Shown here: positions 3,227 through 20,953 of the stretch, in pieces
How the letters are laid out: every line of letters starts with the position of its first letter
How positions within the stretch are numbered: the stretch's first letter is position 1
Assembly: GCF_002196855.1 (NCBI RefSeq)
Contig: NZ_NIPW01000006.1
Coordinates: 1 to 64,000 of the forward strand
DNA from: Haematobacter genomosp. 1
GTDB lineage: Bacteria; Pseudomonadota; Alphaproteobacteria; Rhodobacterales; Rhodobacteraceae
Length of the DNA stretch: 64,000 bases
Direction of reading: 5' to 3'
Translations under genes and position numbers: made by a program
Notes under the pieces: generated by a model
Told to the model about the DNA's origin: nothing
The model's database searches: none
Seen by the model: the letters and a program-made list of their open reading frames with translations, nothing else

Positions 3227-3259
3227 CGGCGGCTCCCTCCGGGTGGGATCACTGGCGCC

Positions 3260-3910
3260 ATGCTGCCCCAGATCCGCCCCTCAGACACCACGCCCGCCGC
3301 GCATGAGCGGCTCTATCGCACTTTACGCCAGCAGGTCATGCACGGCGAGCTTGCGCCCGGCCAGTCGCTCACGCTCCGTGGTCTGGGGCGGACATTCGGC
3401 GTCTCCATGACCCCTGCGCGGGAGGCCGTGCGGCGGCTGGTGGCGGAGGGTGCGCTGACGCTCTCCTCCTCCGGGCGGGTCTCCACGCCGGAACTGTCGA
3501 ACGAGCGGATCGAGGAGCTTGCGGCCATCCGTGCCCTGCTGGAGCCGGAGCTTGGCACACGCGCCCTGCCGCGCGCCCACATGGCGCTGATAGAGCGGCT
3601 CCAGACCATCAACGCCGCCAATGCGGAGGCGGTCGCCAAGCATGACGCCGTGGCCTATATCCGCACCAACCTGGAGTTCCACCGGACCCTCTATCTCCGT
3701 GCGCAGGCCCCCGCGATGCTTGCCATGGTGGAGACGGTCTGGCTGCAACTCGGCCCGACGATGCGGGCGCTCTATGGTCGGCTCCGGCGGAATGAGGCGC
3801 CGCCCTATCACCGCCATATCATCGCCGCGCTGAAGGCGGGGGACGATCCCGGACTGCGGCTCGCGATCCGCACGGATGTCACGCAGGGCTTGCGCCATCT
3901 GACGGCATGA
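3260..3910 (+). CDS. GntR-family transcriptional regulator (FCD type)
   Basis: A 216-residue regulator. Residues 10-75 form the winged helix-turn-helix, with the typical GELAPGQSLTLRGLGRTFG and TPAREAVRRLVAEGAL motifs. The C-terminal half is an all-helical FCD effector domain with the metal-binding pattern in NLEFHRTLY and a later YHRHIIAALKAGD segment. FCD regulators usually sense organic acids such as sugar acids or C4-C6 carboxylates. The gene stands alone downstream of the metallopeptidase gene (33 base gap), so its target cannot be deduced. The older copy of the repeat element begins 40 bases after its stop. Confidence 0.9.
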   Translation: MLPQIRPSDTTPAAHERLYRTLRQQVMHGELAPGQSLTLRGLGRTFGVSMTPAREAVRRLVAEGALTLSSSGRVSTPELSNERIEELAAIRALLEPELGTRALPRAHMALIERLQTINAANAEAVAKHDAVAYIRTNLEFHRTLYLRAQAPAMLAMVETVWLQLGPTMRALYGRLRRNEAPPYHRHIIAALKAGDDPGLRLAIRTDVTQGLRHLTA

Positions 3911-4419: not shown

Positions 4420-5808
4420 TTACGAGTGGATCGGGCCGTCGCCACAGGCGAGCGCCGCCTCCCGCACTGCTTCCGAATAGGTCGGGTGGGCATGGCAGGT
4501 GCGGGCCAGATCTTCTGCCGCAGCGCCGAACTCCATCGCCACACAGGCTTCATGGATGATCTCGCCCGCCGACGGGCCGATGATATGAACCCCGAGGATC
4601 CGGTCCGTTTCCTTGTCGGCGAGGATCTTGACGAAGCCTTCCGCCGCCAGCGTCGCCTTGGCCCGGCCATTGCCCATGAAGGAGAACTTGCCGACCTTGT
4701 AGGCCCGGCCCTCCTTCTTCAGTGCTTCCTCCGTCGCACCGACGGAAGCCACTTCCGGCGTGGTGTAGATCACGCCCGGAATGACCTCGTAGTTCACGTG
4801 GCCATGCTTCCCGGCGATCGTTTCCGCCACGGCCATGCCCTCATCCTCCGCCTTGTGGGCGAGCATCGGGCCCTGGATCGCATCGCCGATGGCGTAGATG
4901 CCGGGGACGGTGGTCTGCCAGTGGCCGTTCGTGACGATCTGGCCGCGCGGGGTCAGCTCGACACCCAGCGCGTCAAGGCCAAGGCCCTCCGTGTAAGGCT
5001 TGCGTCCGGTGGCGACGAGCACGACATCGGCTTCCACCGTCGCCTCGCTGTCGTCCTTGCGGAGCTTGTAGGTCACGGTCGCGCCAGCCGCGCCCTTCTC
5101 CACCTTCTGGACGGCGGCGCCCAGCACGAATTTCAGCCCCTGCTTGGCGAGGATGCGCTGGAACTGCTTTTGCACCTCCGCATCCATGCCGGGGGTGATG
5201 GCGTCGAGATACTCGATCACCGTGACTTCCGCGCCGAGCCGCTTGTAGACCGAACCAAGCTCCAGACCGATCACCCCCGCGCCGATCACTGCAAGGCGCT
5301 TCGGGATGTCCTTCAACGCCAGCGCGCCGGTGGAGGTGACGACGGTTTCCTCATCGACATCCACGCCGGGCAGGCTGGAGGAGACGGAACCGGAGGCGAT
5401 GACGATGTTCTTCGCCTCATGCACCTCGTCTCCGACCTTGACCTTGCCGGCCTCCGGGATGGAGGCCCAGCCCTTGATCCAGTCGATCTTGTTCTTCTTG
5501 AACAGGAACTCGATGCCCTTCGTGTTCTGCCCGATCACGTCTTCCTTGAAGGCGAGCATCTTCGGCCAGTCCACGGTGGGATGGGCGCCCATGAGGCCCA
5601 TTTTCTCGAAATTCTCGTGGCTTTCGTGCAGCAGATGCGTCGCATGCAGCAGCGCCTTGGAGGGGATGCAGCCAACGTTGAGGCAGGTGCCTCCAAGCGC
5701 TTCCCGCCCCTCGACGCAGGCGGTCTTCAATCCCAGCTGGGCCGCGCGGATGGCGCAGACATAGCCGCCGGGGCCGCCGCCGATCACGATCACATCATAA
5801 CTTGCCAT
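4420..5808 (-). CDS. lpd: Dihydrolipoyl dehydrogenase (E3)
   Basis: A 462-residue flavoenzyme that reoxidises dihydrolipoyl groups of 2-oxoacid dehydrogenase complexes with NAD+. Visible features: FAD-binding [17 protein letters not shown] at the N-terminus; the redox disulfide in [16 protein letters not shown] (Cys42 and Cys47); an NAD-binding [20 protein letters not shown] segment; a TGRKPYT motif; and the C-terminal active-site HAHPTYSE. The length is normal. It is the last gene of the minus-strand cluster and sits just before a strong terminator, so it probably serves as E3 of the oxoglutarate dehydrogenase complex. It is separated from odhB by two small genes. Confidence 0.97.
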
Positions 5809-6550: not shown

Positions 6551-8095
6551 TCAGAGATCCATCAGCAGGCGGCGCGGATCCTCCAGCGCTTCCTTGACGC
6601 GCACGAGGAACGTCACGGCGCCCTGACCGTCCACGATACGGTGATCGTAGGACAGTGCCAGATACATCATCGGACGGATGACGATCTGTCCCTTCACCAC
6701 AACGGGGCGCTCCTGGATCTTGTGCATGCCGAGGATGCCCGACTGCGGCGGGTTCAGGATCGGCGAGGACAGCAGCGAGCCATAGACACCGCCGTTGGAG
6801 ATCGTGAAGGTGCCGCCCTGCATGTCGTTCATGGAGAGCTTGCCGTCCCGCGCCTTGGCGCCAAGCTCGGCAATGGTCTTTTCGATCTGTGCAAACGACA
6901 TCTGGTCGGCATTGCGCACGACCGGCACGACGAGCCCGTTCGGCGTGCCCACGGCCACGCCCATATGGACGAAGTGCTTGTAGACGATGTCCGTCCCGTC
7001 GATCTCGGCGTTGACTTCCGGCACTTCCTGAAGCGCATGGACGCAGGCCTTGGTGAAGAAGGACATGAAGCCGAGCTTCACCTTGTGCTTCTTCTCGAAC
7101 TGCTCCTTGTATTCATTGCGCAGCGACATGACCGCCGACATGTCCACCTCGTTATAGGTGGTCAGCATGGCGGCGCTGTTCTGCGCATCCTTCAGGCGGC
7201 GGGCGATGGTCTGACGCAGGCGCGTCATCTTCACCCGTTCCTCGCGGCCCACGTCATCCGCAGCGACCGGCGCGCGGGCGACAGGGGCGGCGGCAGGCGC
7301 GGCGGAGGCGGCGGGCGGGTTGGCCAGCGCCTTCAGCACGTCTTCCTTCATGATGCGGCCATCGCGCCCGGTGCCGGTCACGGCGTCACGGGACAGGCCC
7401 GCGTCCGCCATGGCGACCTTGGCGGAGGGTGCATCCTCCACATCCCTCCGACCGGAGGCAGGCGCGGCCGTGGTGGCGGGTGCGGCAGCCGCAGCGGGCG
7501 CGGCGGCAGCGGCGCCCGCACCGGAGGCGATCACGGCGAGCTTGCCCGCGGCCTCGACCGTGGTGCCTTCAGCGGCGAGGATCTCGACCAGCACGCCCGA
7601 AGCCGGGGCAGGAACCTCGACGGAGACCTTGTCGGTTTCCAGTTCGCACAGCATCTCGTCGGCGGAGACCTTGTCGCCCACCTGCTTGAACCAGGTCGCG
7701 ACGGTCGCCTCCGTCACGCTTTCGCCCAGAGCGGGGACCTTGACTTCGACACGCTCGCCGCCGGTGCTGGCCGGCTTGGCCTCGGCAGCCTTCGCTTCCG
7801 CAGCCTTCGCTTCTGCAGGCCTGGCGGCGGGCGCGGGCGTGGATGCGGCGGCGCCGGCACCCTCGCTGATCGTCGCCAGCAGCGCGTCAACTCCGACGGT
7901 TTCGCCTTCCTTCGCCACGATCTCACCCAGTGTCCCGGCGGCGGGGGCCGGAACCTCCACCGTCACCTTGTCGGTCTCCAGTTCGCAGAGCATCTCGTCA
8001 GCCGCGACCCTGTCGCCCGGTTTCTTGAACCAGGTCGCCACGGTCGCTTCGGTGACGCTTTCCCCCAGCGTGGGGACGCGGACTTCAACGGTCAT
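6551..8095 (-). CDS. odhB: Dihydrolipoyllysine succinyltransferase (E2o) with two lipoyl domains
   Basis: The 514-residue E2 core of the 2-oxoglutarate dehydrogenase complex. Two N-terminal lipoyl domains are present, each with [14 protein letters not shown] and ELETDKV; lipoylated lysines are predicted at Lys43 and Lys156. They are joined by Ala/Pro/Glu-rich linkers containing a tandem AAEAK repeat. A peripheral-subunit-binding domain follows around residues 225-260, then the catalytic domain with SYDHRIVDG near the C-terminus. Many bacterial SucB proteins have a single lipoyl domain (about 400 residues); the doubled form is common in Rhodobacterales. It starts 6 bases after the sucA stop. 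Confidence 0.96.
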
Positions 8096-8101
8096 TAGTC
8101 T

Positions 8102-11071
8102 TTATCCTTCGATCGTGAGCGCTTCATTCACGAGCGCTTCCTGCTGTGCCTTGTGCTGGCTGGAAAGGCCCGTCGCCACCGAGGCGGAGGCCGCACGGCC
8201 GACATAGCGCGGCCGCTGATGAGTAGAGCCGAGGCGGGTCAGAACCCATTCGATATTCGGCTCGACAAAGGTCCAGGCGCCCTGGTTCTTCGGTTCCTCC
8301 TGGCACCAGACGATTTCCGCATCCTTGAACCGGCCCAGTTCACGGACGAGCGTGAGCGCCGGGAACGGATAGAGCTGTTCGAGCCGCAGGATGTAAACGT
8401 CGGTGATGCCCCGCGCATCCCGCTCCTCCAGCAGATCGTAATAGACCTTGCCGGAGCAGAGCACGACACGCCGGATTTGCTCGTCCGCCACCAGTTCCGT
8501 GGTGGAGTTGCCTTTCTGCGCATCGTCCCAAAGCACCCGGTGGAAGTTGGACCCGGTGGTGAAATCCTCCGCCGTGGAGACGGCGAGCTTGTGCCGGAGC
8601 AGCGACTTCGGCGTCATCATCACCAGCGGCTTGCGGAAGGTGCGGTGCAGCTGGCGGCGCAGGATGTGGAAATAGTTGGCGGGGGTGGTGCAGTTCGCGA
8701 CGATCCAGTTCTCCTGCGCGGAAAGCTGAAGATACCGCTCCAGACGTGCGGAGGAGTGCTCCGGGCCCTGACCCTCGTAGCCATGCGGCAGCAGCATCAC
8801 GAGCCCGGACATCCGCAGCCATTTCGATTCGCCCGACGAGATGAACTGGTCGAACATGATCTGCGCGCCGTTGGCGAAGTCGCCGAACTGCGCCTCCCAC
8901 AGGGTCAGCGCGTTCGGCTCTGCGAGCGAGTAGCCGTATTCGAAGCCCAGCACCGCATATTCGGAGAGCATCGAATCGATGACCTCGTAACGGGATTGCC
9001 CCTCACGGATATGGTTGAGCGGATAGTAACGCTCCTCCGTCGCCTGGTCGATGAAGGCGGAGTGCCGCTGCGAGAAGGTGCCGCGCGTCGAATCCTGCCC
9101 CGACAGACGGACCGGAAAGCCTTCCGTCAGCAGGGAACCGAAGGCCAGCGCCTCGCCCGTCGCCCAGTCGAAGCCGGCGCCCGTCTCGAACATCTGCTTC
9201 TTGGCGTCGATCAGGCGGGTGACGGTCTTGTGGATCTCGAACCCGTCCGGTGCGGTGGTGAGCGCGTGGCCGATATCCTTCAGCGTCTCCGGCGTGATCG
9301 CGGTGTCGCCGGGCTGGTAGTCCTCCCCCTCGCGGTTGATGTTCTTCCACCGTCCGTCCAGCCAGTCGGCCTTGTTCGGCTTGTATTCCCGACCGGCTTC
9401 GAACTCTCCGTTCAGCATCGTCTGGAAGGCGGCCTTCATATCCTCGATCTCACCCTCGGGGATCAGGCCGTCGGCGACGAGCCGGTCGGTGTAGAGCTGA
9501 AGCGTGGTCTTGTGCTTCTTGATCTGGGTGTACATCACCGGGTTGGTGAACATCGGCTCGTCGCCTTCGTTGTGACCGAAGCGACGGTAGCAGAAGATGT
9601 CGATGACCGCGTCCTTGTGGAACTTCTGCCGGAACTCGGTCGCCACCTTGGCGGCATGAACGACCGCCTCCGGGTCATCGCCGTTCACATGGAAGATCGG
9701 CGCTTCCACCATCAGGGCGATGTCGGTCGGATAGGGCGAGGAGCGGGAGAAATGCGGCGCGGTGGTGAAGCCGATCTGGTTGTTCACCACGATATGGATG
9801 GTGCCGCCCGTCCGGTGGCCGCGAATGCCCGAAAGCTGGAAGCATTCCGCGACGATGCCCTGACCGGCAAAGGCCGCATCGCCATGCATCAGGATCGGCA
9901 GGACGGCCACGCGTTCCGCCTGATCGTGAAGCTGGTCCTGCTTGGCGCGCGCCTTGCCCAGCACGACCGGGTCCACCGCTTCGAGGTGCGAGGGGTTCGC
10001 GGTCAGGCTGAGGTGGACTGTGTTGTCGTCGAACGTCCGGTCGGAGGAGGCGCCGAGGTGATATTTCACGTCACCCGAGCCGTCCACGTCGTCAGGCTTG
10101 AAGCTGCCGCCCTGAAACTCGTTGAAGATCGCGCGGTAGGGCTTGCGCAGCACGTTGGCCAGAACGTTCAGCCGGCCGCGGTGCGGCATGCCGATCACCA
10201 CCTCCCTCACGCCGAGCGCGCCGCCCCGCTTGATGATCTGCTCCATCGCCGGGATGAGCGCCTCGCCCCCGTCAAGGCCGAAGCGCTTGGTGCCCATGTA
10301 TTTGACATGGAGGAATTTCTCGAAACCCTCCGCCTCGACCAGCTTGTTCAGGATCGCGCGACGGCCTTCGCGGGTAAAGGTGATTTCCTTGCCGTAGCCT
10401 TCGATCCGCTCCTTCAGCCAGGCGGATTGCTCCGGGTCGGAGATGTGCATGTATTGCAGCGCGAAAGTGCCGCAATAGGTCCGCTTCACGATATCGACGA
10501 TCTGCCGCATCGTGGCGTGCTCCATCCCGAGCACGTTGTCGAGGAAGATCGGCCGGTCCATGTCGCCTTCGGTAAAACCGTAGGACGCGGGGTCGAGCTC
10601 CGGGTGATCCGCGCTTTGCCGCACGCCCAGCGGGTCGAGATCGGCGGCCAGATGCCCCCGGATGCGATAGGCGCGGATCAGCATGATCGCGCGGATCGAA
10701 TCCAACACGGCGCGGCGGATCTGGGCATCCGACACCTCGACGTCGAGGGCCTTGGCCTTTTCGGCGATCTTCTGACCGGCGGCCTTTGCCTCCTTCGCGG
10801 GGGTGGCGACGGGCCATTCGCCGGTAAGCGCGGCGGTCAGGTCGTCATTGGGAAGCGGGGGCCAGTCGCTGCGGGTCCAGCTCGCGCCCTCCGCATTGCG
10901 CTGCGCATCCTGCTTGTCGTCACCCAGCGCCTTGAAGAATGCCTGCCAGCTCGCATCCACGGAATTCGGATCCGTGGCATAGCGCGCCTGCAGCTGCTCC
11001 ACGTAATCCGCGTTCGCTCCCTGCAGGAAGGACGAGGCGTGGAACACGTCGTTCGGGGATTGGTCGGTCAT
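8102..11071 (-). CDS. sucA: 2-oxoglutarate dehydrogenase E1 component
   Basis: A 989-residue thiamine-diphosphate enzyme that decarboxylates 2-oxoglutarate and transfers the succinyl group to E2. Diagnostic segments include YMHISDPEQ, the active-site region VVIGMPHRGRLNVLANVL, HLGASSDR, the ThDP motif GDAAFAGQGIVAEC with the later NNQIGFTT, and a C-terminal RYVGRAASASVATG. Normal length. The start at 11071 overlaps the DUF805 stop by four bases (ATGA). The frame opposite it is also open over nearly its whole length, but only the minus strand has family sequence. Confidence 0.97.
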   Translation of the reverse strand: MTDQSPNDVFHASSFLQGANADYVEQLQARYATDPNSVDASWQAFFKALGDDKQDAQRNAEGASWTRSDWPPLPNDDLTAALTGEWPVATPAKEAKAAGQKIAEKAKALDVEVSDAQIRRAVLDSIRAIMLIRAYRIRGHLAADLDPLGVRQSADHPELDPASYGFTEGDMDRPIFLDNVLGMEHATMRQIVDIVKRTYCGTFALQYMHISDPEQSAWLKERIEGYGKEITFTREGRRAILNKLVEAEGFEKFLHVKYMGTKRFGLDGGEALIPAMEQIIKRGGALGVREVVIGMPHRGRLNVLANVLRKPYRAIFNEFQGGSFKPDDVDGSGDVKYHLGASSDRTFDDNTVHLSLTANPSHLEAVDPVVLGKARAKQDQLHDQAERVAVLPILMHGDAAFAGQGIVAECFQLSGIRGHRTGGTIHIVVNNQIGFTTAPHFSRSSPYPTDIALMVEAPIFHVNGDDPEAVVHAAKVATEFRQKFHKDAVIDIFCYRRFGHNEGDEPMFTNPVMYTQIKKHKTTLQLYTDRLVADGLIPEGEIEDMKAAFQTMLNGEFEAGREYKPNKADWLDGRWKNINREGEDYQPGDTAITPETLKDIGHALTTAPDGFEIHKTVTRLIDAKKQMFETGAGFDWATGEALAFGSLLTEGFPVRLSGQDSTRGTFSQRHSAFIDQATEERYYPLNHIREGQSRYEVIDSMLSEYAVLGFEYGYSLAEPNALTLWEAQFGDFANGAQIMFDQFISSGESKWLRMSGLVMLLPHGYEGQGPEHSSARLERYLQLSAQENWIVANCTTPANYFHILRRQLHRTFRKPLVMMTPKSLLRHKLAVSTAEDFTTGSNFHRVLWDDAQKGNSTTELVADEQIRRVVLCSGKVYYDLLEERDARGITDVYILRLEQLYPFPALTLVRELGRFKDAEIVWCQEEPKNQGAWTFVEPNIEWVLTRLGSTHQRPRYVGRAASASVATGLSSQHKAQQEALVNEALTIEG

Positions 11072-11687: not shown

Positions 11688-12572
11688 TTACTTGCCCATG
11701 GCCTTCAGAACGGCCTCACCGAGACCGGCAGGGCTGTCGGCGACGATGACGCCCGCGGACTTCATCGCCTCGATCTTCGATTCCGCATCGCCCTTGCCGC
11801 CGGAGACGATGGCTCCGGCATGACCCATGCGGCGGCCTTTCGGAGCGGTGCGCCCGGCGATGAACCCGGCGGTCGGCTTCCAGCGGCCCCTTTTCTTCTC
11901 GTCGGCGAGGAACTGCGCGGCGTCCTCTTCCGCCGAACCACCGATCTCACCGATCATGATGATGGACTCGGTTTCCGGGTCGGCAAGGAACATTTCCAGC
12001 ACGTCGATGTGCTCGAGCCCCTTGATCGGGTCGCCGCCGATGCCGACTGCGGAGGACTGGCCGAGACCCACGTCGGAGGTCTGCTTCACCGCCTCGTAGG
12101 TCAGCGTGCCGGAGCGGGAGACGACGCCCACTGAGCCGCGCTTGAAGATGTTGCCCGGCATGATGCCGATCTTGCACTCGCCCGGCGTCATGATGCCCGG
12201 GCAGTTCGGCCCGATGAGGCGCGACTTGCTGTTGGCGAGGGCGCGCTTCACCTTCATCATGTCGAGCACCGGGATACCCTCGGTGATCGCGACGATCAGC
12301 GGGATCTCCGCGTCGATGGCTTCGAGGATCGAATCGGCCGCGAAGGGCGGCGGAACGTAGATCACGGAGGCGTCTGCCCCGGTCTGTTCCCTCGCTTCCA
12401 GAACCGAGTTGTAGACCGGCAGGCCGAGATGCTCGGTGCCGCCCTTGCCCGGCGTCACGCCACCGACCATCTTTGTGCCGTAGGCGATGGCCTGTTCGGT
12501 GTGGAAGGTCCCCTGGGAACCGGTGATCCCCTGACAGATGACCTTGGTGTCTTTGTTGACGAGAACGGACAT
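11688..12572 (-). CDS. sucD: Succinyl-CoA synthetase alpha subunit
   Basis: A 294-residue alpha subunit catalysing succinyl-CoA to succinate with nucleoside triphosphate formation. It shows the CoA-binding N-terminal segment with [13 protein letters not shown] and VTPGKGG, the [12 protein letters not shown] motif and the phosphorylated-histidine loop [14 protein letters not shown] near residue 246. The length is typical. It starts three bases after the sucC stop and is followed by a 92-base gap before the DUF805 gene. Confidence 0.97.
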
Positions 12573-12575
12573 TCC

Positions 12576-13769
12576 TTACCCCTTCACCGCTTTCACGATC
12601 TTCTGAGCAGCGTCGCTCAGATCGTCGGCAGCGATCACGTTCAGGCCGGACTCGGCGATGATCTTCTTGCCGAGTTCGACGTTGGTGCCTTCAAGTCGCA
12701 CGACCAGCGGAACCTGCAGACCCACTTCCCTCACCGCGGCGATGATGCCTTCCGCGATGATGTCGCACCGCATGATCCCGCCGAAGATGTTGACGAGAAT
12801 GCCTTTGACGTTCGGGTCGGAGGTGATGATCTTGAAGGCTTCCGTCACCTTCTCCTTCGTCGCGCCGCCGCCCACGTCGAGGAAGTTGGCCGGTTCCGCG
12901 CCATAGAGCTTGATGATGTCCATCGTCGCCATGGCAAGGCCCGCGCCGTTGACCATGCAGCCGATCTCACCGTCGAGCGCGATGTAGTTCAGATCGTATT
13001 TGGAGGCGGCGAGTTCCTTCGGATCCTCCTCCGTCTCGTCGCGCAGCGCGAGAATGTCGGCGTGGCGGTAGAGGGCGTTGTTGTCGAAGCCCACTTTCGC
13101 GTCCAGCGCCTTCATGTCGCCGTCGGTGGTGACGATCAGCGGGTTGATCTCCACCATCTCCGCGTCTTTCTCGACGAAGAGTTTGTAGAGCTTGCCGATC
13201 AGGTCCACGCATTGCTTGACCTGCTTGCCTTCGAGACCCAGCGCGAAGGCCACCTTGCGGCCGTGGAACGGCTGGATGCCGGTCGCCGGATCGACGGAGA
13301 AGGACAGGATCTTCTCGGGGGTGGAGGCCGCCACTTCCTCGATGTCCATGCCGCCCTCGGTGGAGACGACGAAGGACACGCGGGAGGTCACCCGGTCCAC
13401 CAGCAGCGCGAGGTAAAGCTCGCGGCTGATGTCGGAACCGTCCTCGATGTAGATGCGGTTGACCTGCTTGCCGGCCGGCCCGGTCTGGTGCGTGACCAGC
13501 GTGCGGCCCAGCATCTGCTTGGCGAGTTCGGCCGCTTCCTCGACCGACTTGGCCAGACGGACACCGCCCTTTTCGCCGGCTTCCGGCTCCTTGAACTTGC
13601 CCTTGCCGCGGCCGCCCGCGTGGATCTGCGCCTTGACGACCCAGAGCGGTCCGCCCAGTTCGCCTGCGGCGGTCTTCGCGTCTTCGGCCTTCAACACGGC
13701 GCGGCCATCGGAGACCGGCACGCCGTAGTCGCGCAGGAGCTTCTTGGCCTGATATTCGTGGATGTTCAT
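12576..13769 (-). CDS. sucC: Succinyl-CoA synthetase beta subunit (ADP-forming type)
   Basis: A 397-residue beta subunit with an N-terminal ATP-grasp fold starting [19 protein letters not shown] and a C-terminal ligase domain with [16 protein letters not shown]. It pairs with SucD just downstream. The start at 13769 is fixed by the conserved N-terminus; upstream in-frame sequence is non-conserved. First gene of the minus-strand operon sucC-sucD-DUF805-sucA-odhB-small gene-MAPEG-lpd. Two TGTGATCACA palindromes lie 147-177 bases upstream of the start. Confidence 0.97.
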
Positions 13770-13915
13770 TCTCTCACCGGTTCCTCTGCTGAGTTCGGTC
13801 CTCTCCCGTCCCGGTCGTCGAACCGGGCCGACTGGGCGGTCTTTTGGCACGATCCGCGGACAGGGGAAAGGGAAAGGCTGGGCAACCGCGAAGCAGCCAG
13901 CCAAAATCCGCCTTA

Positions 13916-13946
13916 TGTGATCACAAGGAAAAATCGTGTGATCACA
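13916..13946 (-). promoter_or_regulatory. Paired TGTGATCACA palindromes upstream of sucC
   Basis: Two perfect copies of TGTGATCACA at 13916-13925 and 13937-13946, with centres 21 bp apart, i.e. on the same face of the helix. A nearly identical pair precedes sdhC. The location and spacing suggest binding of a dimeric regulator controlling TCA genes. The protein is not identifiable here; a GntR/MarR/CRP-type regulator (for example the AkgR type known from Rhodobacter) is conceivable. Confidence 0.65.
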
Positions 13947-13953
13947 AAATGCA

Positions 13954-13989
13954 GATGGCCGCCTCCGAGGTGAGTCGGAAGCGGCCATC
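13954..13989 (-). terminator. Probable mdh terminator
   Basis: A long hairpin with outer stem GATGGCCGC/GCGGCCATC and inner stem TCCGA/TCGGA around a 6-base loop. It lies 14 bases after the mdh stop and is followed on the minus strand by TGCATTTTG. It would separate mdh from sucC transcription. Confidence 0.7.
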
Positions 13990-14003
13990 CGATGACAAGA
14001 CGA

Positions 14004-16750: not shown

Positions 16751-16954
16751 ATGAAACTCTACAGATTTCTGAGCGATGACGACACTTCTACCTTTTGCCA
16801 CAAGGTGACGGCGGCTCTCAACGCAGGGTGGGAGCTGCATGGCGGGCCGACTTACGCTTTTGACGGGACCAACGGCATAATGCGTTGTGGTCAGGCGGTG
16901 GTGAAAGAGGTTGAGGGAACCTACACCCCCGAAATGAAGCTTGGCCAGTATTGA
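16751..16954 (+). CDS. DUF1737-domain small protein
   Basis: A 67-residue cytosolic protein beginning MKLYRFLSDDDTSTFCHKV, with the GWELHGGPTYAFDG core of DUF1737 proteins. The function of the family is unknown. It starts 12 bases after the mcl2 stop and is probably co-transcribed with it. The paired palindromes of the sdh promoter begin 20 bases after its stop. Confidence 0.85.
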   Translation: MKLYRFLSDDDTSTFCHKVTAALNAGWELHGGPTYAFDGTNGIMRCGQAVVKEVEGTYTPEMKLGQY

Positions 16955-16974
16955 CCGTCGGTTGTGACTCCAAA

Positions 16975-17004
16975 TGTGATCACAGCAACTGCGCCGTGAT
17001 CACA
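16975..17004 (+). promoter_or_regulatory. Paired TGTGATCACA-type palindromes upstream of sdhC
   Basis: TGTGATCACA at 16975-16984 and CGTGATCACA at 16995-17004, centres 20 bp apart, 184-213 bases upstream of the sdhC start. The same pair occurs before sucC with a 21 bp spacing, which suggests both TCA operons are under one regulator. The sdh transcription start is not determined here. Confidence 0.65.
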
Positions 17005-17187
17005 TATCTGCGATTTTTCTGGCGCTTCGCTGCGTAATAGGGGAAACGGGGTCCAGCATGGGCGTGACATGGGCCGCAAATCGGCTATTCATGCCCGGAT
17101 GAGGCCCGGTTGACCGGTCCGCACATCTTGGGAAAGCCAGACCCCGGGCGGCGCGGCCCGCGGGCCGCCAGTACGGAGAAGAACGTC

Positions 17188-17574
17188 ATGGCCGATGTCG
17201 AGCGCGGTAATCGCCCGCTTTCGCCCCACCTCCAGATTTATCGCCCGCAGTTGACGGCATTCACCTCGATCATGACGCGGATCACGGGCAATGGCCTGAT
17301 CGTCACCGCCGTTCTGATCGTGTGGTGGTTCGTCGCTCTTGCGTCCGGGCCGGAAGCCTATGACCGGGCGAACGGGTTCCTGACCTCATGGTTCGGCGAC
17401 CTCATCATGACGCTGTCGGTGGCGGCGATGTGGTATCACCTCCTCGCAGGGTTGCGGCATGTGTGGTGGGACAACACCACACGCGGCATGGATATCCCGA
17501 CCGCCTACAAAATCGGCTACGCGATGTTGGCGGGCACGGTTGTCCTCACCCTCCTTACCCTGATCATCGTCTGA
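17188..17574 (+). CDS. sdhC: Succinate dehydrogenase cytochrome b556 subunit
   Basis: A 128-residue membrane anchor with three hydrophobic helices. It begins with the conserved RPLSPHLQIYRPQLTAFTSI and SIMTRITGN motifs and has the haem-ligand histidine in YHLLAGLRHVWWD. It forms the quinone site and haem anchor with SdhD. The start at 17188 is chosen because the family begins at MADVERGNRPLSPH. First gene of sdhCDAB. Confidence 0.95.
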   Translation: MADVERGNRPLSPHLQIYRPQLTAFTSIMTRITGNGLIVTAVLIVWWFVALASGPEAYDRANGFLTSWFGDLIMTLSVAAMWYHLLAGLRHVWWDNTTRGMDIPTAYKIGYAMLAGTVVLTLLTLIIV

Positions 17575-17582
17575 GGCCCGAC

Positions 17583-17954
17583 ATGCGTTACCTGACGTCC
17601 CGCAAGCAGGCCGAAGGGCTCGGCTCCGCCAAGACCGGCACGCATCACCACTGGCAGATGCAGGTCAAGGGCATGGCGCTCGTGTTCCTCATCCCGCTTT
17701 TCATCTTCACCTTCGGCCCGATGCTCGGTCGCCCCTATGCGGAAGTCGCCGCCTATTACGCGCGCCCCTTCCCGGCGATCGTCGCGGGCCTGACCTTCAT
17801 CGTGGGTCTGATCCACTTCAAGGAAGGCGCGCAGATCATGATCGAGGATTACACCGACGGCAACGCGCGGAAGATCCTGATCCTGCTCTCCACCTTCATC
17901 AGCTATGCCGCGGCGGCTGCGGGCGTTTACGCGCTGATCCGCCTCGCGCTTTGA
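17583..17954 (+). CDS. sdhD: Succinate dehydrogenase membrane anchor subunit
   Basis: A 123-residue protein with three predicted transmembrane helices and an N-terminal [19 protein letters not shown] segment typical of alphaproteobacterial SdhD. A histidine in the second helix ([16 protein letters not shown]) corresponds to the haem/quinone region. It starts eight bases after sdhC and ends 16 bases before sdhA. Confidence 0.93.
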
Positions 17955-17970: not shown

Positions 17971-19779
17971 ATGGCAGCCTATCCTTACGAGACCCATACC
18001 TATGACGTCGTTGTCGTGGGTGCGGGCGGCTCCGGGCTCCGCGCCACGCTCGGCATGGCCGAGCAGGGGCTCCGCACGGCTTGCATCACCAAGGTTTTCC
18101 CGACGCGGTCCCATACCGTCGCAGCACAGGGCGGCATCGCCGCCAGCCTTGCCAACATGGGGCCGGACAACTGGCAGTGGCACCTCTACGACACCGTGAA
18201 GGGGTCGGACTGGCTTGGCGACACCGATGCGATGGAATACCTCGCCCGGCAGGCGCCCAAGGCGGTTTACGAGCTTGAGCACTACGGCGTGCCCTTCTCC
18301 CGCACGGAAGAGGGCAAGATCTACCAGCGTCCCTTCGGCGGTCACACGACGGAATTCGGCGAAGGCCCGCCCGTGCAGCGCACCTGCGCCGCGGCAGACA
18401 GGACGGGGCACGCGATTCTGCACACGCTCTACGGCCAGTCGCTGAAGGAGAAGGCGGAATTCTTCATCGAATACTTCGCCATCGACCTCATCATGTCGGA
18501 AGACGGCAAGCAATGCGTCGGCGTCCTGGCATGGAAGCTCGATGACGGCACGATGCACGTCTTCTCCTCCAAGATGGTCGTGCTGGCGACGGGCGGCTAC
18601 GGGCGCGCCTATTTCTCCGCCACCTCCGCGCATACCTGCACGGGTGACGGCGGCGGCATGGTGGCCCGTGCCGGGCTGCCGCTGCAGGACATGGAATTCG
18701 TGCAGTTTCACCCGACCGGTATCTACGGCTCCGGCTGCCTCATCACCGAGGGCGCGCGGGGCGAGGGTGGCTATCTCACCAACTCCGAGGGCGAGCGGTT
18801 CATGGAACGCTACGCGCCCACCTACAAGGACCTGGCGTCGCGCGACGTGGTATCGCGCTGCATGACGCTGGAGATCCGCGAGGGCCGCGGCGTGGGGGAG
18901 CACAAGGACCACATCTTCCTGCACCTGAACCACCTGCCGCCGGAGACGCTGCACGAGCGGCTTCCCGGCATCTCGGAATCGGCGCGCATCTTCGCCGGCG
19001 TGGACGTGACGAAGGAGCCGATCCCTGTTCTGCCGACCGTGCACTACAACATGGGCGGCATTCCGACGAACTACCACGGCGAGGTGCTCAACCCGACGGC
19101 GGACAATCCCGACGCGATCTTCCCCGGCCTGATGGCGGTGGGCGAGGCGGGCTGCGCCTCCGTCCACGGGGCGAACCGGCTGGGGTCCAACTCGCTGATC
19201 GACCTCGTGGTCTTCGGGCGCGCGGCGGCGATTCGGGCTGGCGAGCTGCTGAAGCCCGAGGACGCGAACCCGCCGCTCAACAAGGCCTCGATCGACAAGG
19301 CGCTCGACCGGTTCGACCATTTCCGCCACGCCAACGGTTCCGTCCCGACGGCGGAGCTGCGGCTTGAGATGCAGCGCACGATGCAGGCCGATGCCGCCGT
19401 GTTCCGTACCGACAAGACGCTCGCCGAAGGCGTGGAGAAGATGGACAGGGTCGCGGCCAAGATGGCCGACATCAAGGTGACGGACCGCAGCCTCGTGTGG
19501 AACTCCGACCTGATGGAGACGCTGGAGCTCACCAACCTGATGCCGAACGCGCTGGCCACCATCGTGGGGGCGGAAGCGCGCAAGGAATCGCGTGGCGCCC
19601 ATGCCCATGAGGACTGGCCGAACCGGGACGATGCGAACTGGCGCAAGCACAGCCTTGCCTGGGTTGACGGCACGAAGGTGACGCTGGACTACCGTCCGGT
19701 CCACCTCGATCCGCTGACGCCGGAATCCGAAGGCGGCATCCCGCTGAAGAAGATCGCGCCGAAAGCGCGCGTCTATTGA
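17971..19779 (+). CDS. sdhA: Succinate dehydrogenase flavoprotein subunit
   Basis: The 602-residue catalytic subunit that oxidises succinate to fumarate. It has an FAD-binding [19 protein letters not shown] motif, the covalent-FAD histidine in [10 protein letters not shown], the substrate motif [21 protein letters not shown] split over normal positions, [10 protein letters not shown], and [18 protein letters not shown]. Full length. The stop overlaps the start of a small lipoprotein gene by one base (TGATG). Confidence 0.98.
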
Positions 19780-20170: not shown

Positions 20171-20953
20171 ATGGTCCAGTTCACACTTCCCAAGAACTCC
20201 AAGATCCGCACCGGCAAGACCTGGCCCAAGCCGGAAGGCGCGACGAACGTCCGCAAGTTCCAGATCTACCGCTGGAACCCGGACGACGGGCTGAACCCGT
20301 CCGTCGATACCTATTACCTCGACATGGACAAGTGCGGCCCGATGGTTCTGGACGCGCTCATCAAGATCAAGAACGAGGTCGATCCGACCCTCACCTTCCG
20401 CCGGTCCTGCCGCGAGGGGATCTGCGGCTCCTGCGCGATGAACATCGGCGGGATCAACACGCTGGCCTGCATCTACGGGCTGGACGAGGTGCATGGCGAA
20501 ACGGTGAAGATCTATCCGCTGCCGCACATGCTGGTGGTGAAGGACCTGATCCCAGACCTCACCCTGTTCTACGCGCAGCACGCCTCCATCATGCCGTGGC
20601 TGGAAACCAAGACCAACCGCCCGCAGAAGGAATGGCGCCAGTCCATCGAGGATCGCAAGAAGCTCGACGGGCTCTATGAATGCGTGATGTGCGCCTCCTG
20701 CTCCACCTCCTGCCCGAGCTACTGGTGGAACGGCGACAAATACCTCGGTCCGGCAGCGCTGCTCCATGCCTACCGCTGGATCATCGACAGCCGTGACGAG
20801 GCGACGGGCGAGCGTCTGGACGGGCTGGAAGATCCGTTCAAACTCTATCGCTGCCACACGATCATGAACTGCACCAAGACCTGCCCGAAGGGCCTGAACC
20901 CGGCGAAAGCGATCGCCGAGATCAAGAAGATGATGGTCGAACGCGCGATCTGA
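20171..20953 (+). CDS. sdhB: Succinate dehydrogenase iron-sulfur subunit
   Basis: A 260-residue subunit carrying electrons from SdhA to quinone. The N-terminal ferredoxin domain has [12 protein letters not shown] for the 2Fe-2S cluster. The C-terminal domain has [16 protein letters not shown] and [17 protein letters not shown], which supply ligands for the 4Fe-4S and 3Fe-4S clusters. Normal length; separated from sdhA by the lipoprotein gene. A strong hairpin follows 17 bases after the stop. Confidence 0.98.

Follow-up and report, generated by a model that had tools for sequence, protein, structure and literature searches.

Conserved palindrome pairs upstream of sdhC and sucC in Haematobacter, probable tandem operators of an AkgR-type GntR/FCD regulator

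In a 64,000-nucleotide stretch of DNA from Haematobacter genomosp. 1 (contig NZ_NIPW01000006.1, positions 1 to 64,000 of the forward strand; the whole analysed stretch is referred to here as the window), the sdh and suc operons are each preceded by a pair of closely spaced palindromes, and these pairs are real, strongly conserved and operator-like. Judging from the sequence, we consider it very probable that both pairs are tandem operators of one AkgR-type GntR/FCD regulator, most likely the product of a gene at 3260-3910. An earlier note on this DNA had suggested that the two operons form a shared TCA regulon, and this suggestion is supported by the uniqueness of the double site, by its conservation at both operons, by a linked regulator gene and by the orthologues of that gene, which often carry the same palindrome before their start. 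The note had also taken the regulator to be unknown, which was too pessimistic; a GntR/FCD candidate is encoded within the window.

The four palindromes, none of which is assigned to a strand, are:

16975..16984, distal palindrome TGTGATCACA, upstream of sdhC (sequence, exact match, column conservation in relatives)
16995..17004, proximal palindrome CGTGATCACA, upstream of sdhC (sequence, exact core match, relatives)
13937..13946, distal palindrome TGTGATCACA, upstream of sucC, a minus-strand gene (sequence, relatives)
13916..13925, proximal palindrome TGTGATCACA, upstream of sucC (sequence, relatives)

The sdhC pair described in the earlier note is confirmed by the window sequence at 16975-17004, which reads TGTGATCACA GCAACTGCGC CGTGATCACA, or TGTGATCACA-N10-CGTGATCACA, with 20 bp from centre to centre and 183 nt from the end of the pair to the sdhC ATG at 17188. 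Upstream of sucC, positions 13916-13946 read TGTGATCACA-N11-TGTGATCACA, with 21 bp from centre to centre and 146 nt from the end of the pair to the sucC ATG at 13769 on the minus strand. The statement that the sdhC pair repeats the sucC arrangement at 20 bp therefore holds to within 1 bp, the correct figure being 20 bp for sdhC and 21 bp for sucC. Within each palindrome of both pairs the half-sites abut.

The genes behind the two pairs were assigned as follows:

17188..17574, plus strand, sdhC, first gene of the sdh operon (PF01127 Sdh_cyt on the longer open reading frame 17110-17574; TIGR02970 on 17188-17571)
17583..17954, plus strand, sdhD (by position only, as the open reading frame between sdhC and sdhA)
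17971..19779, plus strand, sdhA (FAD_binding_2, Succ_DH_flav_C)
20171..20953, plus strand, sdhB (Fer2_3 and Fer4 domains)
12576..13769, minus strand, sucC, first gene of the suc operon (NF001913 / TIGR01016)
11688..12572, minus strand, sucD (CoA_binding, Ligase_CoA)
8102..11071, minus strand, sucA, 2-oxoglutarate dehydrogenase E1 (NF006914)
6551..8095, minus strand, sucB, E2 (NF004309 / TIGR01347)
4420..5808, minus strand, lpd, E3, dihydrolipoyl dehydrogenase (TIGR01350)

The sdhD frame had no NCBIfam match at E 1e-20. On the minus strand the order is mdh, sucC, sucD, sucA, sucB and lpd, and sucCD, sucA, sucB and lpd are probably co-transcribed; sdhC, sdhD, sdhA and sdhB are on the plus strand. 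Between mdh and the sdhC pair there are an HpcH/HpaI-type gene and a DUF1737 gene, the latter (67 residues, 16751-16954) lying directly before the pair and ending in a stop codon 20 bp short of the distal palindrome. A strong terminator-like hairpin of 17 pairs is found between mdh and sucC on the minus strand (13952-13991); read in that direction, from 13991 to 13952 after mdh, it ends a few bases before the distal sucC palindrome. A search with consensus hexamers found no sigma-70-like promoter at the sdhC or sucC operon. In relatives, column conservation brings out a T-rich element, weakly conserved and some 50 bp past the proximal sucC palindrome, which could be a -10 region; it is indistinct in the window's own sequence and was therefore not used.

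Exact copies of GTGATCAC occur four times in the 64-kb window, every one within the two pairs, and bare TGATCA is below expectation, with 7 found against 14 expected from shuffling. When up to one mismatch in GTGATCAC was allowed there were 32 matches in the window against 25 expected, which is not a clear excess. Across the organism's own 4.2-Mb genome the double site GTGATCAC-N9..16-GTGATCAC occurs in two places only, the sdhC and sucC pairs, and its reversed pattern does not occur there at all; single TGTGATCACA is found in 15 places, three of them in the two pairs, with none for the reversed control. Moreover, 8,200 single-base shuffles, drawn from 41 upstream regions (30 of sucC and 11 of sdhC), gave no pair at 20-21 bp with at most 3 mismatches in 20. 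Both the uniqueness in the genome and the shuffles bear out the view that two such occurrences are unlikely to have arisen by chance.

Phylogenetic footprinting, which had been put forward as the check on this idea, was carried out on the best 80 named loci from a SucC scan by comparison of their upstream regions. Among the 80 loci listed, the 30 closest (L018-L047) have mostly Rhodobacterales titles; 27 of them carry the exact pair ahead of sucC, as against none of the next 50 (of which L091 is titled Rhodobacteraceae). With at most 2 mismatches in 20 the pair is kept in 29 of the 30 close loci, at 21 bp in 27 of these and at 20 bp in two (L024 and L031). The exception, L041 (Roseovarius sp. 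217), has a sucC-like gene without the pair and an upstream region that by eye resembles coding sequence; our guess is that this gene may be of the malate-CoA ligase type rather than sucC. The region upstream of sdhC could be reached in 11 of the 30 close loci and not in the other 19, and the pair was kept under the same mismatch limit in 10 of the 11, always at 21 bp, with a single site in the other (L021). In the sucC and sdhC upstream regions, column identity is mostly 80-100% in the palindromes and 25-60% for most spacer and flank columns; exceptions among the latter are bases adjoining a palindrome (the AA that follows the proximal one at sucC, 90%) and a T at +56 (83%).

Loss of the palindromes in relatives, which the earlier note had named as evidence against its idea, is not the rule. 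Of 248 family genomes, representing about one per genus, 221 keep the double site and 27 lack it, with the reversed control at 0 of 248; two copies per genome are usual, as judged by eye. At the level of the class (385 genomes), the pair with a spacer of N11-14 is found in all five genomes of the same family, with two copies each, and in 5 of the 380 others, with one copy each; the reversed control matched in one genome only (G086, five matches). The out-of-family genomes with one double palindrome are G026, G159, G215, G318 and G391.

Two features of the window bear on the regulator:

3260..3910, plus strand, GntR/FCD regulator, proposed AkgR orthologue (PF00392 and PF07729; co-occurrence with the double site; palindrome before the starts of orthologues)
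3244..3253, no strand assigned, TGGGATCACT, a degenerate palindrome (2 mismatches in 10) just before the regulator's ATG

The protein encoded at 3260-3910 has the architecture of the FCD (FadR-type) subfamily of the GntR family, with an N-terminal GntR winged helix (PF00392, residues 16-68) and a C-terminal FCD domain (PF07729, residues 86-205), both over the cut-off. Of two solved structures matched by sequence, McbR (PDB 4p9f) was the better (profile match to the regulator over positions 19-203, E 1.4e-24); it serves as a structural relative only. Its biological role is different from that proposed here. In the FCD domain N137, H141, H184 and D206 are invariant, and by eye we assume that these may hold the usual FCD metal-ligand positions, with the last His replaced by Asp.

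The organism's own genome has 21 FCD-domain matches. Orthologues of the gene at 3260-3910 (E<=1e-40) were found in 225 of the 248 family genomes, a count taken unsorted where many genomes have two matches to the regulator and thus paralogues exist. Of these 225 genomes 218 have the double site, versus 3 of the 23 without an orthologue (Fisher p 1e-20, although genomes share history and such p-values for site and regulator overstate independence). In these co-occurrence tables handles were copied by hand, and genomes not listed as negatives were inferred from their absence among the positives. Seven genomes keep the regulator and have no exact double site (G436, G450, G516, G541, G549, G560 and G595), and in three (G415, G490 and G508) the double site stands with no regulator detected; the G490 genome is 77% complete, and those of G415 and G508 are drafts in roughly 210 and 320 contigs, respectively.

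The location of the gene is also informative. The R. sphaeroides counterpart would be AkgR, which we take to be RSP_0981. In the relevant passages of one study, the predicted targets of the GntR regulator RSP_0981 in Rhodobacter sphaeroides are RSP_0967-6 (sucCD), RSP_0974-6 (sdh) and RSP_0965-62 (2-oxoglutarate dehydrogenase) (PMC4344238). The gene at 3260-3910 is convergent with lpd in the window, as are the orthologues in Defluviimonas (L191), Maritimibacter (L192) and G602 (L199), and in G447 and G569 the orthologue lies directly downstream of sdhB, at about 2 kb and convergent. Either position borders the TCA cluster, in keeping with the tags RSP_0962-0981. When placement relative to sdhB was compared in 102 genomes, the two genes were on one contig in 48 and within 35 kb in 35, and this proximity, like the two genomes at about 2 kb, agrees with the tags RSP_0974-6 and RSP_0981. 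We infer that 3260-3910 is the orthologue of RSP_0981, with which the gene order in G447 and G569 agrees.

A palindrome is also found before the regulator's own gene in many relatives. Of 30 orthologue loci (L200-L229, a set that includes the window's own gene, counted as a miss), 12 have an exact GTGATCAC 16-22 bp ahead of the aligned first codon, and the palindrome also precedes the orthologues L191, L192 and L199, loci that were chosen because the palindrome had already been seen. The pattern TTGAC-N12..16-GTGATCAC-N4..20-ATG matched in 50 of 80 family genomes searched (G397-G476), and its reversed control in none. In 46 of the 80, those with the orthologue's place among the matches listed, which favours closer relatives, the pattern stands just upstream of the orthologue in 30, on the same strand and at most 46 nt from the aligned start, and is absent there in 16, as it is before the window's own gene; 13 further matches lie elsewhere in these 46 genomes. 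Among the 30, the gap from TTGAC to the core is 13 bases in 25, 14 in two and 15 in three, and the full TGTGATCACA is present in 24. If a 17-bp spacer is assumed, the palindrome would partly cover the expected -10 region, which is the classic position for self-repression. In the window, TGGGATCACT at 3244..3253 is possibly a decayed self-regulation site, an uncertain assignment; since this copy is degenerate and stands 17 bases after TTGAC, compared with 13-15 in relatives, self-regulation in this genome is doubtful.

It is conceivable that another GntR/FCD protein binds the pairs, and the candidate is L099 (G000:C28:45657-46301), a conserved gene outside the window, although we consider this unlikely. 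L099 is found in 218 of the 248 family genomes; 210 of these 218 have the double site, compared with 11 of the 30 that lack the gene, and in Roseibaca the L099 orthologue lies near lpd. However, each of the 11 genomes that have the double site and lack L099 (E<=1e-40; among them G456 holds a contig-end fragment of it) carries the window-type regulator, and GTGATCAC is found neither in L099's own 3.4-kb locus nor in the 9 orthologue loci examined (at least 70% identity). Judged by eye, no L099 orthologue among the matches listed is within 10 kb of sdhB, the nearest being about 19 kb away in G400, a genome without the double site. Genomes with a single gene of the two have the double site in 11 of 16 where this is the window-type regulator versus 3 of 9 where it is L099 (p 0.12), a comparison that is not decisive alone. 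L099 was dropped as first choice because 3260-3910 follows the distribution of the site more closely and many of its orthologues have the palindrome at their starts. In G444 the L099 orthologue looks broken, being in two pieces with an internal stop.

The earlier note had named CRP/FNR-type proteins, such as FnrL or a CRP homologue, as further candidates, and the half-site TGTGA/TCACA does resemble that of CRP. The consensus is TGTGA-N6-TCACA for CRP and TTGAT-N4-ATCAA for FNR. Abutting half-sites do not provide the 6 or 4 bases that these sites require between their arms, and Rhodobacter sphaeroides, according to the relevant passages, is predicted to lack a CRP analogue or at least is not predicted to possess one (PMC4344238). 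Neither TGTGA-N6-TCACA nor an FNR-type site was found in the sdhC or sucC upstream region, so that a protein of this type is a highly improbable binder. Equally hard to credit as the main regulator at the pairs is CceR, a LacI-family regulator of central carbon metabolism that we take to be RSP_1663. In the passages concerned, RSP_1663 is predicted to regulate sdh and mdh in Rhodobacter sphaeroides and the motif of CceR is given as (A/G/T)GTT-N6-8-AAC(A/C/T) (PMC4344238), but this motif is absent from 16955-17187 and 13770-14003, the upstream regions examined. Both CceR and CRP/FNR were excluded as binders on sequence, their motifs being missing from both upstream regions. That the palindromes are a repeat, a restriction-type site or chance matches rather than operators might be argued from the 12 other copies of TGTGATCACA in the genome (by ORF picking, nine within genes, two intergenic at G000:C35:50787 and 52267, and one ambiguous at G000:C28:48625), but has next to no likelihood and was ruled out, as the pair is unique to the two operons, its spacing is fixed and it is conserved at the same promoters in relatives while spacers and flanks vary.

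For the AkgR-type regulator we propose a mechanism, with binding, an effector and the steps that follow all put forward conditionally. The 20-21 bp between palindromes implies that two neighbouring dimers would occupy one face of the DNA with about two helical turns between them, and their cooperative binding in tandem may switch on sdhCDAB and sucCD-sucAB-lpd together. The direction, activation, is proposed by analogy, because AkgR of Rhodobacter sphaeroides is reported as an activator. In many relatives, a single palindrome over the regulator's own expected -10 region would lead to self-repression. We give about even chances to a wider reading, a family-wide site-number code, in which one GntR/FCD protein would activate the lower TCA block from in-phase tandem palindromes at two promoters, 20-21 bp or two helical turns apart, and would repress its own gene from a single site over the -10 region, pair and regulator being kept or lost together in most genera. 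The two geometries, tandem at the targets and single at the regulator in many relatives, bear on how GntR/FCD proteins may both activate and repress.

The distribution indicates that an AkgR-type circuit is widespread in the family genomes sampled and is not peculiar to Rhodobacter sphaeroides, and the window offers a specific two-operon regulon with a candidate regulator gene inside the same 64 kb. Passages on or citing AkgR, in papers other than the original one, make no mention of tandem geometry or a self-site; the self-site and the strictness of the tandem spacing throughout the family are possibly new, and we do not claim novelty for them. In the passages of the study concerned, the palindrome GTGATCAC is also that of PS417_07240, a GntR-like regulator of the deoxyribonate cluster of Pseudomonas simiae that is 32% identical to AkgR, although there it is described at one site, for another pathway and in a gammaproteobacterium (PMC6365646). 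The closer likeness is to the AkgR regulon of Rhodobacter sphaeroides, as the earlier note had suggested for an AkgR-type protein: in the respective passages GTGATCAC is a motif among the sites of AkgR, a transcriptional activator (PMC6365646), and the predicted target operons are the same as here (PMC4344238). In Haematobacter, exact GTGATCAC cores stand at both target promoters, the sdh, sucCD and 2-oxoglutarate dehydrogenase genes lie behind the pairs (Pfam, NCBIfam) and the genome encodes a GntR-family regulator that tracks the double site; the two systems thus share a GntR regulator, the palindrome, the predicted targets and, as far as the tags in those passages tell, a location near the TCA cluster, but differ in that the Haematobacter gene, a presumed orthologue, is convergent with lpd and not on the sdh side. 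On present sequence evidence we file the two-operon system as a putative new instance of the AkgR regulon, a kind already described.
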